A DNA stretch of 64,000 nt from Anaerolineaceae bacterium. GTDB lineage: Bacteria; Chloroflexota; Anaerolineae; Anaerolineales; Anaerolineaceae. Positions 37,387 to 59,256 of the stretch are shown here, in pieces. The stretch lies in NCBI GenBank assembly GCA_002702705.1, contig PABH01000069.1:124001-188000 (forward strand). Reading direction: 5' to 3'. A program made the position numbers and the translations under genes. The notes beneath the pieces are model-generated. The model was not told the origin of the DNA and made no database searches. It worked only from the letters and a program-made list of their open reading frames with translations. Position 1 is the stretch's first letter. Every line of letters begins with the position of its first letter.

Positions 37387-38454
37387 TTAGACTGTTAGTG
37401 AGATTTCCTCCAGTGTAAACAATTCAGAAAGAAATTCTTTCCAGTCAGCTTGCAGGTCGATACTGGCTCCCAGGACACAGTCTCCTCCAACAACCAGGTT
37501 TTGGACCAAATTGTGGTTTCGTGCATGGTGCCAAAGTGTTGCAGCCCATTCGTCTAGAATGGGTACTTCCAAGGCTTCTTTGATCCGGTCGACAAAAAGT
37601 TGGATCAAAGTACCTCGAGGATCTGGTGTTTCTCGGAACACGAGCAGAAACGTTCGTTGGTCTTCGGGTTCCCATTTGCTTGATAAAGCCAGCCGTGATA
37701 CAAAACCAACATGATGGCTGGTATATTCTGGCATGGCTAACCAAGCTTGTTCATATTTTTCGGTGGGCAGTAGAGTAATATCACTCATACCATCTTGTGA
37801 CATTTGTAGTTGTTTTCCGCACATGAGTGTTGCCCGCAGCGAATCCAGACTGGTCTTGTAACCGACCATACCGATGTATGCCAAATTGTGGTCGCTGTCA
37901 TAGGCATAACCAGTGACATGTGCCAGGGCTTGCCCATTGCGTAACTTTGGAACCGCTTCAGAAAAAAGCCGGTCGCTTGGTTGAACAATTATATTTTCCG
38001 ATATTGAGATTTTCCAAATAACAACCCCTGCATTTATCCTCGTGAGTTCTTCATTTATCTCTCTAAGCACCTCGTATAACCCCTTCCAGGGTTGCACACC
38101 AGTGAATGTTATGTGAGTTTCACCGTTTTGGATCGTAATTCGGCGACCCTGAATATCTAGGTTGGCTTCAGCCAACATTAAAGGACGATAATTAACCAAT
38201 GCGGACGGTAATTTTTCTCCAGGTATTGCGATAAACAGGTATGCACCAAGTTCTGAGTTGTAATTTAAGTAACCGGCTTTCCCAACTTTATAATCATATG
38301 GGTATGTCGCCCGGGATAGATCCCGACCCAAATCATCTCGGGTTGGGAGTCCACTACCATCTTTGTAAGCAGAAATCACAATATTCCCTTCCCTTTGTTT
38401 GGCGATAATCTGTTTCACTTTATCGCGCAGATAGACGTCCTCATAATCATTCAT
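37387..38454 (-). CDS. hypothetical mobile-element protein
   Basis: A 355-residue protein of unknown family. ATG 38454 has a perfect AAGGAGGAATAT site; longer readings do not. It is mixed alpha/beta with no catalytic or membrane motif I can recognise. The run LGRDLSRATYPYDY near residue 35 and PWKGLYEVLREINEEL near 115 are its most distinctive parts. It is in series with the other minus-strand maintenance genes and is 137 bp upstream of the methyltransferase-helicase gene. Confidence 0.65.
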   Translation of the reverse strand: MNDYEDVYLRDKVKQIIAKQREGNIVISAYKDGSGLPTRDDLGRDLSRATYPYDYKVGKAGYLNYNSELGAYLFIAIPGEKLPSALVNYRPLMLAEANLDIQGRRITIQNGETHITFTGVQPWKGLYEVLREINEELTRINAGVVIWKISISENIIVQPSDRLFSEAVPKLRNGQALAHVTGYAYDSDHNLAYIGMVGYKTSLDSLRATLMCGKQLQMSQDGMSDITLLPTEKYEQAWLAMPEYTSHHVGFVSRLALSSKWEPEDQRTFLLVFRETPDPRGTLIQLFVDRIKEALEVPILDEWAATLWHHARNHNLVQNLVVGGDCVLGASIDLQADWKEFLSELFTLEEISLTV

Positions 38455-38540
38455 ATATTCCTCCTTGTAAAATTTTGTTAGTGAAGTTACGCAAAACCGC
38501 AGGATGTTCAAATCCTGCGGTTAATCAAAGTTCGAAGAGG

Positions 38541-40730: not shown

Positions 40731-41156
40731 TTAAAATTCGATATCCTCAATTTCCGGATTGTGTGTTGATTCGTTAGCTTCCTCGCTGGTTGTATCGTTC
40801 CAGCCATGAGCATCACGCCCAGAAAGGAAACGCACAGTGGAAGCGGTTACCTCATAAGAAGCATGGATTTGTCCGTCCTTTTTCCAAAGGAAAGGACCAC
40901 CGGTCTTTGGATCAGGTGTGAGACGTCCTTCAACAAAAACTTTACTGCCTTTACGTAGGTTATTAAAACAGGGTTCAGCTTGTTTTCCCCATACGGTCAC
41001 CCGGAACCATGTGGTTTCTTTTACTACTTGCCCGGATGAGTCGCGGTAACGTCGATTTGTAGCTACCGACATCGTAGTTACTGGATGTCCACCAGGGGTA
41101 AAGCGTTTTTCCGGGTCTTTTCCTAAGTTGCCAATCAGGATAATTGTCTGGTACAT
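40731..41156 (-). CDS. ssb: single-stranded DNA-binding protein
   Basis: A 141-residue SSB. The OB-fold is clear from MYQTIILIGNLGKDPEKRF, TTWFRVTVWGKQAE and KGSKVFVEGRLTPD. The acidic tail ends in IEDIEF, close to the DDIPF tip by which bacterial SSBs bind partner proteins, with Glu in place of Pro. It coats ssDNA during replication, repair or transfer. The ATG lacks a good ribosome site and lies inside a short upstream ORF (41135-41224), so translation may be coupled. The copy is probably element-encoded. Confidence 0.9.
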   Translation of the reverse strand: MYQTIILIGNLGKDPEKRFTPGGHPVTTMSVATNRRYRDSSGQVVKETTWFRVTVWGKQAEPCFNNLRKGSKVFVEGRLTPDPKTGGPFLWKKDGQIHASYEVTASTVRFLSGRDAHGWNDTTSEEANESTHNPEIEDIEF

Positions 41157-41224
41157 ATGATTTTTGCTTTCAGAATGATGGTATTACCTGTGATTTTTCT
41201 AAAATATTTTCTAGTTTTATCCAT
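41135..41224 (-). CDS. possible 29-residue leader ORF overlapping ssb start
   Basis: ATG 41224 is preceded by AAGGAGATTT, a far better ribosome site than that of ssb. The ORF runs 29 basic codons (starts MDKTRKYFRKITG) and stops 19 bp inside ssb, in another frame. Such a layout allows translational coupling or leader control of SSB. The short length makes it tentative. Confidence 0.4.
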   Translation of the reverse strand: MDKTRKYFRKITGNTIILKAKIICTRQLS

Positions 41225-41278
41225 AAATCTCCTTGTAGTAGGTTATCCAACGTTTATCTTAAAAACGATTAATATATT

Positions 41279-41299
41279 TGCCTTTTTCAGAAAAAGGCA
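41279..41299. terminator. short perfect hairpin
   Basis: TGCCTTTTT (41279-41287) and AAAAAGGCA (41291-41299) pair perfectly around a 3-nt loop. Its A/T arms could act as a weak terminator or structured leader element upstream of ssb. Confidence 0.45.
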
Positions 41300-41313
41300 T
41301 CCAAGGTAAAAAA

Positions 41314-41406
41314 CTACCCATAAAAAAAGTAGGGCAGTAAACACCAAAGGAGAAGTGATTGTTTCTCTTTTCGTGTTTACCACACTAAAAAAAGTAGTAT
41401 GGGTAG
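41314..41406. repeat. imperfect long inverted repeat with internal direct repeat
   Basis: CTACCCATA (41314-41322) pairs with TATGGGTAG (41398-41406), and inside it GTAAACAC (41337-41344) pairs with GTGTTTAC (41373-41380). TAAAAAAAGTAG occurs directly at 41321 and 41386, and a further CTACCCAT lies at 41424. This lies in the noncoding gap between the OB-fold gene and ssb. Confidence 0.55.
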
Positions 41407-41515
41407 ACCAGGATGTTTTTGACCTACCCATCATTTCAGTATATTTTCATTTAATATGAACCTCTTTTTTTAAGTGCCGAATGGAGGTTTTTTTGTAAGG
41501 TTCAAGAATTAAAAT

Positions 41516-41597
41516 AAGGAGGATCCACCACAAATAAAATTTGTGGTTGGTTGGATCACTCACCAATGGTGAGGTGAACCAATCAGTGATCCTCCTT
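41516..41597. repeat. nested hairpins with alternative pairings
   Basis: Outer arms AAGGAGGATC (41516-41525) and GATCCTCCTT (41588-41597) are a perfect 10-bp inverted repeat. Inside are CCACAAAT/ATTTGTGG (41528-41546, AAA loop) and CTCACC/GGTGAG (41559-41573, loop AAT region). GGATCACT (41553-41560) can also pair with AGTGATCC (41585-41592), excluding the outer stem. Both strands thus carry AAGGAGG in the stem. An attenuator, origin or recombination site are possible. Confidence 0.6.
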
Positions 41598-41759
41598 GTG
41601 AATCTAAACCGGAAGAAGTTCCTTTTCCTGAATACAATCGGTTTTGTAGTTTAGTAGGTTTCTCGTTTGTTTACAGGGGGTTGATCCTGGATTTTAACAA
41701 AAACATGAGAAAAAATTAAATTGTGTCAGGAATTTTTTATGATGCCTGGTAGTTGATCA

Positions 41760-42245
41760 TTAGGCATCTAAGGTTTCTTCTGGTTCAGTGATTCTTAATG
41801 GGCTGGTATTGTTCTCTTTATGTGACTTCTTTTCAGTATGTGGTCCTGTATCTAGCACGATAATACGTTGACTGACCACTTCGACGATGTTTCGGTCAAT
41901 TAGAATTTGATCTTTTTTTCGATCAGTGCCTTTGATTTCAACAATAAAGTCTTGAGTGGACTTTACCTTCCGGGCCTTGTTGATAAATTCTTCCAGGCTT
42001 TCCCGGAAATCTCTAGATTGCAGGAAGCCATGTATTCGCAATCGCATACCACGGTGAATCTGAATTAATCCATTGGCCCCACCGTTTACCCGGATATTAA
42101 CATAATCCCCGGCGTCCCTTTCCATATCTAATTTTTTGGTTGGTAAATCATTGTCTCGATAGATCACAACTCGGAAAAACAAATCCTCCATATATTTCCA
42201 TGGATTTCGCACAACGATTCCTTCTAAAATAACTTCATTAATCAA
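41760..42245 (-). CDS. OB-fold (SSB-like) protein
   Basis: A protein of about 161 residues whose first 100 form an OB-fold like SSB or PriB: NEVILEGIVVRNPW, FFRVVIYRDND, GDYVNIRVNGGANG and MRLRIHGFLQSRDF. The remainder is charged. AAGGAGGTCAA lies directly before TTG 42245, giving an unusual start; ATG 42272 upstream is an alternative with weaker site. A conserved hairpin leader (42290-42390) precedes the gene, so this start must lie after 42290. Likely a second ssDNA-binding protein of the element. Confidence 0.6.
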   Translation of the reverse strand: MINEVILEGIVVRNPWKYMEDLFFRVVIYRDNDLPTKKLDMERDAGDYVNIRVNGGANGLIQIHRGMRLRIHGFLQSRDFRESLEEFINKARKVKSTQDFIVEIKGTDRKKDQILIDRNIVEVVSQRIIVLDTGPHTEKKSHKENNTSPLRITEPEETLDA

Positions 42246-42289
42246 TTGACCTCCTTGTATCTGTTCCCTCATAGTAGAGGGATTTAAAC

Positions 42290-57741: not shown

Positions 57742-57780
57742 ATATAGGATAATAGACATAAAGTGTCTATTATCCTATAT
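57742..57780 (+). promoter_or_regulatory. palindromic operator overlapping abiEi start
   Basis: A perfect 17-bp inverted repeat (57742-57758 and 57764-57780, spacer TAAAG). Its right arm runs into the ATG at 57779. No Shine-Dalgarno is present, so the mRNA may be leaderless or nearly so. AbiEi antitoxins are known to repress their own promoter by binding inverted repeats. Confidence 0.75.
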
Positions 57781-58435
57781 GAAACAAAAAATCCTTTCCT
57801 CACTTGATTCTTTTCCATACTTCACCACGGAAGCAATAAAACAACTTCTTGGTGATGAATCTATTGCAGCCGGTACCATTCAAACTGCACTTTACCGATG
57901 GATGAAAGCCGGGCAAATTATCCAGTTAAAAAAGGGCTTTTATATGACGCGCCGTTTTTATGAAAACCACCGCTCAGATGTCGGGTTTGCGCCTATGGTA
58001 AGCGCCATTTTGATCCCCCAGTCGTATCTATCACTAGAGTATATCCTTCAGCGCAATGCCATTCTCACAGAAATGACTTATCCGGTATCCGCGGTTACGC
58101 TGAAGCAAACCCGCGTATTTGAAAACAAACCAGGAACTTTTACCTACCGCAATATCAAAGCGGATCTCTATCTGGGTTTTACAATAACGGATTATTTAGG
58201 GATTCCCATAAACCAGGCAACGGTAGCAAAGGCTCTGTTTGATTTTCTCTATTTACGACCTTGGAAGGGCAGCAGACGGTTGGCCAGCTATGACCTGGCA
58301 GAAGATCTGCGCCTTAACCTGGAGGACTTTTTAGAAGAAGACAAGGATGAGTTTGCAACCTTCGTTGGGATGAGTAAAAGTAGAAAGATGGACCAGATTT
58401 TAAAAAACTTGAGGAAAACAGTATGGCGACTTTAA
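57779..58435 (+). CDS. abiEi: AbiEi-like type IV antitoxin/transcriptional repressor
   Basis: A 218-residue protein. The N-terminal winged helix (FTTEAIKQLL...GTIQTALYRWMKAGQI, LKKGFYMTRRF) is the AbiEi_4-type DNA-binding domain; the rest (QSYLSLEYILQRNAIL, YRNIKADLYLGF, ATVAKALFDFLYL) is the AbiEi antitoxin domain. It neutralises AbiEii and represses the operon. A 17-bp palindrome sits on its start. It overlaps the toxin gene by 13 bp. Confidence 0.85.
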   Translation: MKQKILSSLDSFPYFTTEAIKQLLGDESIAAGTIQTALYRWMKAGQIIQLKKGFYMTRRFYENHRSDVGFAPMVSAILIPQSYLSLEYILQRNAILTEMTYPVSAVTLKQTRVFENKPGTFTYRNIKADLYLGFTITDYLGIPINQATVAKALFDFLYLRPWKGSRRLASYDLAEDLRLNLEDFLEEDKDEFATFVGMSKSRKMDQILKNLRKTVWRL

Positions 58436-59256
58436 TCCAATCAATGCAAAACGTACTATCTCAGATAGATCCCTTGTTGGCAAATGAAACCAAGCGGGTG
58501 ATTCTTAAGGAATTTCTGCAAGCCTATACCCTAGATTTTCTTTACAACCATCCATTCTATCGGACGCTCAATTTTTATGGTGGTACCTGTCTGCACGTGA
58601 TCTATGGACTAAACCGGCTCTCAGAAGATATCGATCTGGATAACAGTAATGGTGTTGAATTGAATAATCTTGAAACGGATCTATTGACATTCTATCGTTC
58701 CACCATTGGATATACCGATGTAACAGCCAAAACCCAGATTGGTGAATGGGGTGTCCGGCGAACGACCTTAAAATTCCCTGTTCTTTATGCTTTAGGATTG
58801 ACCTCCCATGCTAATGAACCACTGCATTTGAAAGTGGAAGTCAGCCAGCACAAGCAAATTTCCATTGTGCGTCGAACGCCAATATTGCTTTTTGGCAGAA
58901 GTTTTGTGGCCGCGCATTTTTCGTTGGAAACGATGATGGCAGGGAAGATGTTGGCTTGCCTGGAACGCAACTTTCAGAAAGGTGAAGGAGCCACAATCAA
59001 AGGTCGTGATTTTTACGACTTGCTCTGGTTCATGCAGCAGAAAATTCAGCCATTAGAAGAAAAGCTGGCAAAAGACAGCCGCCAGCCCTACACCGTTCAA
59101 ACTTCGATGGAAATATTGAGCGATAAGATTGCAGGATTGAAAATATCTGACTTAGCAGAGGATCTGCTGCCATTGTTTGAACAGCGATCTTTCATTGAGG
59201 CCTGGTTGGAAGGGTTTAAGGAAAATTTCAGAGAGTATGTGAAGAATTATTTATAA
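58423..59256 (+). CDS. abiEii: AbiEii-like nucleotidyltransferase toxin
   Basis: A 277-residue nucleotidyltransferase. FYGGTCLHVIYG with LSEDIDLD is the GSX10DXD-like active site of the DUF1814/AbiEii family; LKVEVSQHK supplies the third acidic strand, and GRDFYDLLWFM the conserved C-terminal helix. Family members block growth by adding nucleotides to tRNA acceptor ends, and AbiE systems give abortive phage resistance. Overlap with abiEi indicates coupled translation. Confidence 0.9.
   Translation: MATLIQSMQNVLSQIDPLLANETKRVILKEFLQAYTLDFLYNHPFYRTLNFYGGTCLHVIYGLNRLSEDIDLDNSNGVELNNLETDLLTFYRSTIGYTDVTAKTQIGEWGVRRTTLKFPVLYALGLTSHANEPLHLKVEVSQHKQISIVRRTPILLFGRSFVAAHFSLETMMAGKMLACLERNFQKGEGATIKGRDFYDLLWFMQQKIQPLEEKLAKDSRQPYTVQTSMEILSDKIAGLKISDLAEDLLPLFEQRSFIEAWLEGFKENFREYVKNYL

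Follow-up and report, generated by a model that had tools for sequence, protein, structure and literature searches.

The noncoding gap at positions 41157-41759 of the window, a 64,000-nucleotide stretch of an Anaerolineaceae contig, belongs, with a probability that we put at about two in three, to a family of structured, cis-acting leader RNAs that control DNA-processing genes. It is a divergent copy of a leader of 400-700 nt that lies between an OB-fold-like gene and a downstream operon, and the carriers of homologous leaders are related integrative elements of Anaerolineae. Across this family, a conserved and covarying structure lies in the gene sense upstream of a ribosome-binding site (RBS), occurs before more than one gene, and keeps its place between the OB-fold-like gene and an operon that includes Rad52-like, ssb and RadC genes. 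If confirmed, these leaders would constitute an RNA family whose short core module stands in front of several genes within a single mobile element, would offer a handle on the timing of the single-strand DNA machinery in Anaerolineae elements, and would provide a clean test case for RNA versus single-stranded DNA (ssDNA) function of structured regions beside ssb genes. To our knowledge, the regulation of mobile elements has been little studied in this phylum.

The gap and the element that carries it

The preliminary description of this DNA, made from the letters alone, reported a noncoding gap between an OB-fold gene and ssb, and this stands: the ORF list of the window has no ORF of at least 80 aa in the gap, which contains most of a 29-codon ORF (Table 1). 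The genes around the gap are all on the minus strand. The ssb product matches Pfam SSB at 8.4e-28, and 3′ of ssb follow two genes without a Pfam match, RadC, two more without a match, and a DUF6094 methylase/helicase gene. A Pfam search with the product of the OB-fold-like gene gave no match, and its name rests on the preliminary description and a sequence pattern only. The AlphaFold model of this protein was poor (pLDDT 47), a Foldseek search gave no significant match (best E 0.56), profile comparison with SSB yielded a probability of only 0.5 percent over 15 columns, and comparison with PDB sequences gave nothing convincing. A dispersed repeat or MITE was rejected because the gap is single-copy in its own genome, the other 28 matches being short, with E of at least 0.475.

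Judged by shared genes, the element spans about 85 kb (window 1-64000; contig C71, approximately 102.8-188.3 kb). Counterparts of its backbone are found in another element of this genome and in an element of G494, with protein identities mostly of 70-90%. The element encodes two tyrosine integrases, assigned by Pfam on the G494 homologues, as well as Tad/type II secretion-like genes, a transglycosylase, ssb and RadC, and carries defence-like cargo that includes PglZ and large helicases. An AbiEi/AbiEii-like toxin-antitoxin pair lies beside the Tad gene cluster at 57779-59256 of the window.

A leader family in Anaerolineae elements

The OB-like protein is present in 14 of 61 related genomes (its own included), and in 26 of the 147 genomes of the family; among named genomes, it was found at 35 loci, most of which bear the label Anaerolineae, Chloroflexi or that of a genus such as Levilinea, Leptolinea, Ornatilinea, Flexilinea or Bellilinea. 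A search of plasmids, phages and viral contigs gave no match. Pieces of the element also occur in four MAG records (L045, L054, L069, L079) labelled Bacteroidota, Caldisericales, Atribacteria and Micrarchaeota, and these labels of other phyla are possibly binning errors.

The usual gene order is the OB-like gene, a noncoding leader of approximately 400-700 nt, a Rad52-like gene, ssb, and the same downstream genes. The Rad52-like protein of locus L027 matches Rad52/Rad22 in Pfam at 5.1e-16, and the Rad52-like query matches 3′ of the leader in 27 of 29 cases (L075 and L077 in part only). A tblastn search of the window for this gene at E 1 gave no match; here, the Rad52-like gene is gone while the leader remains, now in front of the 29-codon ORF that overlaps ssb. 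The leader is retained where the next gene differs, which is ssb in the window and p119 in L037/L066 (G005:C71), a related element without Rad52-like and ssb matches, in which the leader directly precedes p119.

We collected 32 distinct stretches between the OB-like gene and the next gene, window included. L043 was skipped for its length, loci where the contig ended before the next gene gave none, and many of the collected loci represent the same genomes seen in two collections. Exclusion of L041 and L042 (long gaps) and L051 (an insertion inside P6) from most counts leaves 29 leaders, window included. When the gap itself was used as a DNA query, no related leader was found in the 61 genomes at E 0.01, and there was one 34-base match (G017, E 0.007); the gap is too divergent for a DNA-level search to find the leaders.

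The alignment of 22 leaders, including the window, has in common the blocks P1, P2, linker, P4, P5, P6, P7, AACGYYGG repeats and RBS. In the family, the arms of the P2 junction are AAGGAGGAUC/GAUCCUCCUU (in alignment form GGAGGATCAC/GTGATCCTCC, followed by a T run), the linker consensus is GCACYUUAAYAAACARCC, and P4 ends in GGTTCATAT. In the distant loci L041, L042 and L043, the linker is preserved with no more than 2 changes, and a P2-like stem with a T run is present in L041 and L043 as well. The linker copy of the window is too divergent for the strict linker pattern, the window copy of P2 hairpin A aligns poorly with those of the relatives, and the P1 hairpin of the relatives is not clear there.

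Table 1. Features of the gap and its flanking genes, in window coordinates
Feature	Position	Strand	Support or remark
ssb	40731..41156	-	Pfam SSB
29-codon ORF, in the place of the relatives' Rad52-like gene	41135..41224	-	overlaps ssb start
RBS and ATG, AAGGAGATTTATG	41222..41234	-	
AACGTTGG repeat	41247..41254	-	single pattern copy in window
10-bp hairpin with 1-nt loop, in the place of the relatives' weak hairpin P8	41279..41299	-	
Degenerate first repeat copy, ACCTTGGA	41300-41307	-	
P7, CTGCCC/GGGTAG, alternative pairing of the P6 3′ strand	41314..41337	-	partner permutation tests
P6 hairpin, covarying core	41330..41387	-	covariation; model R1, built without the window, matches 41305-41403
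P5 hairpin, ATGGGTAGGTCA/TGGTCTACCCAT	41399..41431	-	hairpin score at least 11 here in 25 of 28 leaders
P4 stem, TGAACCT/AGGTTCA, within conserved AGGTTCATAT	41457..41504	-	leader alignment
Linker motif, GAACCTTACAAAAAAACC in the window, GCACYTTAAYAAACARCC in the alignment of relatives	41486..41503	-	leader alignment
P2 domain, junction closed by AAGGAGGATC/GATCCTCCTT (41588-41597 with 41516-41525)	41516..41597	-	aligned with 17 relatives
P2 hairpin B	41528-41546	-	inside P2 junction
P2 hairpin A	41547-41582	-	inside P2
OB-fold-like gene	41760..42260	-	directly upstream at 20 of 22 linker-pattern matches in the family

Some leaders depart from the common arrangement. The L033/L058 leader has neither the 3′ half of P4 nor P5, which suggests that these are dispensable modules. 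In the Flexilinea flocculi leader (L051:6480-8436), an insertion of about 1.3 kb interrupts P6; it has CCGCCCTAAAGGGCGG-like ends, and we take it to be of the IS200/IS605 type.

The strict linker pattern occurs at 22 places in 17 of the 147 family genomes; judged by coordinates, 20 of these places are just downstream of an OB-like match, and one is at a contig end. Such adjacency, along with the persistence of the leader when the downstream gene changes, would fit a trans-acting structured RNA that is a partner of the OB-fold-like protein and not a cis-regulator. We consider this unlikely given the stand-alone modules that precede RBS/ATG sites with no OB-like gene beside them, and the complementarity between P2 and the RBS (both described below). 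The remaining linker-pattern match of the 22, in G467, looks like chance. Among 396 genomes of the class, 3 have a match, two of which were taken as chance on inspection by eye, being located in sigma-factor-like coding sequence. None of 39 linker matches in viral contigs is accompanied by other leader features.

Covariation, the folded strand and known structured regions

The gap folds better than 20 of 20 dinucleotide shuffles on both strands, with z-scores for the two strands of -4.1 and -4.9 in one run and -5.8 and -6.3 in another, the strand opposite to the gene sense folding slightly better. RadC coding sequence served as the control, with three genes folded on both strands; of the six z-scores, five were between -0.61 and +1.05, and one was -3.79.

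The inverted repeats that had been described in the gap fared differently. The 82-bp set of nested hairpins corresponds to the P2 domain, the arms of which are perfect over 10 bp. The supposed 9-bp perfect hairpin exists but is a 10-bp one with a 1-nt loop (Table 1); taken alone, it is no better than local shuffles, 12 of 40 of which reach its score, and P8 was dropped as a conserved hairpin, its conservation not being established. The 93-bp inverted repeat (41314-41406) does have 9-bp arms, but their pairing is not conserved: over 15 leaders, the own partner is no better than permuted ones (1174/5000), and a conserved 93-bp helix was rejected on this test. The conserved part within this repeat is the enclosed hairpin P6.

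Across 28 leaders, 93.6% of 560 P6 cells are paired versus 78.2% in shuffles, with none of 500 shuffles reaching the observed value, and 36-48% in slid versions; 14 of the 20 pairs have two-sided changes. This set comprises the 29 leaders less L067, which was missed by the text pattern and is found by the model described below at 25 bits. When 29 P6 copies were taken without the window (14 from representative leaders and 15 stand-alone), two-sided changes were present in 16 of 22 pairs, and a hand-chosen subset of 11 pairs was 93.7% paired versus 84.8%, with 0/500 on four measures and 8/500 on a fifth. Comparison of the P2 domain in 18 leaders gives 32 pairs, of which 10 show two-sided changes; no such change is seen in its ten outer pairs, which therefore say little on covariation. 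The P5 hairpin, to which L058 (deleted), L075 and L077 are the exceptions, differs in sequence between groups of leaders, but many of the leaders are close relatives.

From 27 leaders, the window left out, we built a covariance model of P6/P7 (R1), which matches the window at 41403-41305 on the minus strand, that is, in the gene sense, at 43.2 bits and an E-value of about 1.6e-11 that is only rough owing to short calibration; the next-best match in the window lies at the same position on the opposite strand, with 13.4 bits. This recovery and the compensatory changes in P6 and P5 argue against a double-stranded DNA operator array, or a chance-rich intergenic region, with no RNA role; the AACGYYGG repeats could serve as DNA sites for proteins, and we leave this reading only a very slight chance. 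Folding, covariation and comparison with related elements had been proposed as checks in the preliminary description, with a lack of conserved structure as the adverse outcome; what they show is a structure that is conserved in related elements and covaries in P6.

Wobble pairs bear on which strand is folded. In 15 core leaders, the pairs common to the folds of both strands include 28 G-U cells versus 4 A-C cells (19 versus 4 pair types), and the same comparison in 21 leaders gives a weak 12 versus 6. The G-U:A-C differences among common pairs are small in A2 (21:10), A3 (5:2) and A5 (29:21), and a crude stem count in 18 leaders, chance stems included, gives equality (33:33). The consensus energy for sense versus antisense is -20.1 versus -14.2 in A2, -36.8 versus -32.4 in A3 and -27.4 versus -7.5 in A5. 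Measured against shuffles, folding gains more on the sense strand for 11 of 16 leaders and more on the antisense strand for the other 5, one of which is the window. These comparisons favour, rather than prove, the gene-sense strand as the folded RNA, and we infer that the leader is part of the operon transcript and acts as gene-sense RNA.

Alternatively, the gap could be an ssDNA promoter or priming site of the Frpo/ssi kind in a leading region, where the incoming strand would fold and transcription by RNA polymerase would begin on the hairpin, giving early expression of ssb. The ssb, RadC and helicase genes downstream of the gap would be in keeping with this, as would the folded region upstream of ssb in the window, given that PMC11541004 reports Frpo sequences directly 5′ of SSB genes. 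However, a search with the sigma-70 consensus only found no gene-sense promoter hexamers in the window gap, no sigma-70-like pair was found in the L027 leader, and the stand-alone leader of L031 has one such site (9/12) where the chance level is 0.9. Furthermore, where the wobble pairs are informative, they indicate folding of the gene-sense strand, whereas the folded strand of Frpo would presumably be the template, and no relaxase was found among the element proteins scanned, a subset of all. On balance, the ssDNA promoter appears improbable.

At the gathering level, Rfam gave no match in the window or ten related loci, and a known RNA was rejected on this basis; at the E-value level, the only matches were far below the cut-offs of the respective families. 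A tRNA search of the window found none, and the literature searched contained no report of this leader RNA. The leaders are a probable RNA family without an Rfam match. GOLLD and ROOL, the large ornate bacterial RNAs, are likewise long, multi-domain and found in mobile DNA; the leader differs from them in lacking an Rfam match, in lying directly upstream of an RBS and in having a short stand-alone module. The radC RNA motif, which sits upstream of mobile-element genes, is a candidate cis-regulatory RNA like the leader; its family, RF01754, gave no match in the window or ten related loci. In PMC2864571, this motif is listed for Proteobacteria, and STAXI is described as a pseudoknot that occurs in two or, usually, three repeats and often has UUCG loops, for which the authors also weighed RNA against ssDNA. 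Like the leader, STAXI is structured and located near ssb and other DNA-handling genes; as characterized there, it is set apart from the multi-domain leader with its stand-alone P6/P7 modules, and the STAXI covariance model of Rfam gave no gathering-level match in the window or ten related loci.

Recurrence of the 3′ module and candidate switching

The P6-P7-RBS module also occurs alone, upstream of other genes of these elements. Further R1 copies lie upstream of the p374 gene, the homologue of window 37387-38511, at L027, L031, L034, L035, L037, L038, L055, L200 and L218, and before other RBS/ATG sites at L075, L077, L213 (twice), L214 and L215. Two AACGTTGG repeats are present in eight of the nine p374 copies and none in that of L038, and the six stand-alone copies not associated with p374 have no such repeat. 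The p374 gene of the window closely follows p141, and an unfiltered model search finds no copy there.

R1 matches are present in 29 of 147 family genomes at E of at most 0.01, in 14 of 251 genomes of the order at 0.001, and in 3 of 301 genomes of the phylum at 0.0001, own genome included. In G621, from another family of the order, the OB-like gene, leader, Rad52-like gene, ssb and RadC occur together, and a second contig has an R1 copy after another RadC-like gene. By score only, the match in G690, which may be the genome of L076, is strong, and those in G447, G452, G487, G022, G627, G659 and G839 are weak. The weak matches L216, a plain palindrome, and L217, which looks like one, were put down to chance by eye.

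The preliminary description had suggested an origin of replication or transfer, or an elaborate attenuator. It is the regulatory half of this suggestion that is favoured, by a structure that precedes the RBS and start codon in gene sense and by the recurrence of the 3′ module before other genes; no test points to an origin. A replication or transfer origin (sso, oriT or similar), located by chance between genes for two ssDNA-binding-like proteins, would agree with the placement and the dense inverted repeats, and the AACGYYGG repeats could be iteron-like. We nevertheless regard it as very unlikely because, in the copies examined, the module recurs before several genes, in gene sense, and is followed by an RBS and ATG.

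Several features of the leader are switch-like. The GYYCTG 3′ strand of P6 is also able to pair downstream, in P7. In a permutation of partners among 33 non-redundant copies, with relatedness ignored, the own P7 partner exceeds permuted ones (3/2000 for Watson-Crick pairs, 2/2000 with G-U), and the upstream P6 pairing under the same scheme gives 57/2000 and 0/2000, respectively; single P7 helices are short and mostly not significant. In 16 leaders, P2 fits its own RBS better than the P2 of other leaders do (3/5000, versus 772/5000 for a control region, relatedness again ignored), the own fit being above the mean of the others in only 11 of the 16. The stand-alone modules are without P2, so a P2-RBS switch cannot be the common mechanism. 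The motif [AC]ACGYYGG follows P6 59 times in 43 module copies, against 0.38 expected from base shuffles, and is found twice or more in 26 of the 43 and once in the window. In core relatives, P2 is terminator-like, with a U run (TTTTTGTTT) after it. This feature is degraded in the window, where a terminator scanner finds none; the scanner, with its loop limit of 8, omits P2 of L027 too.

For the leader as a cis-acting regulator, we propose that helices would be exchanged, the outer helix of P6 against P7 and the P2 arm between its own partner and the RBS, and that this exchange would set an open or closed RBS or transcription read-through. The trigger would probably be a nucleic-acid-binding protein encoded by the element, with the OB-fold-like protein and SSB as possible candidates and the AACGYYGG repeats or the linker as its target. 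More broadly, and as a rather doubtful extension, the DNA-processing genes may form an RNA regulon that shares the P6/P7 switch, often with AACGYYGG, and senses free element-encoded ssDNA-binding protein, such that expression would follow the presence of single-stranded element DNA in transfer or replication. The stand-alone P6 modules of L213, L215, L214 and L227 precede genes without an assigned function and could extend the set of controlled genes.
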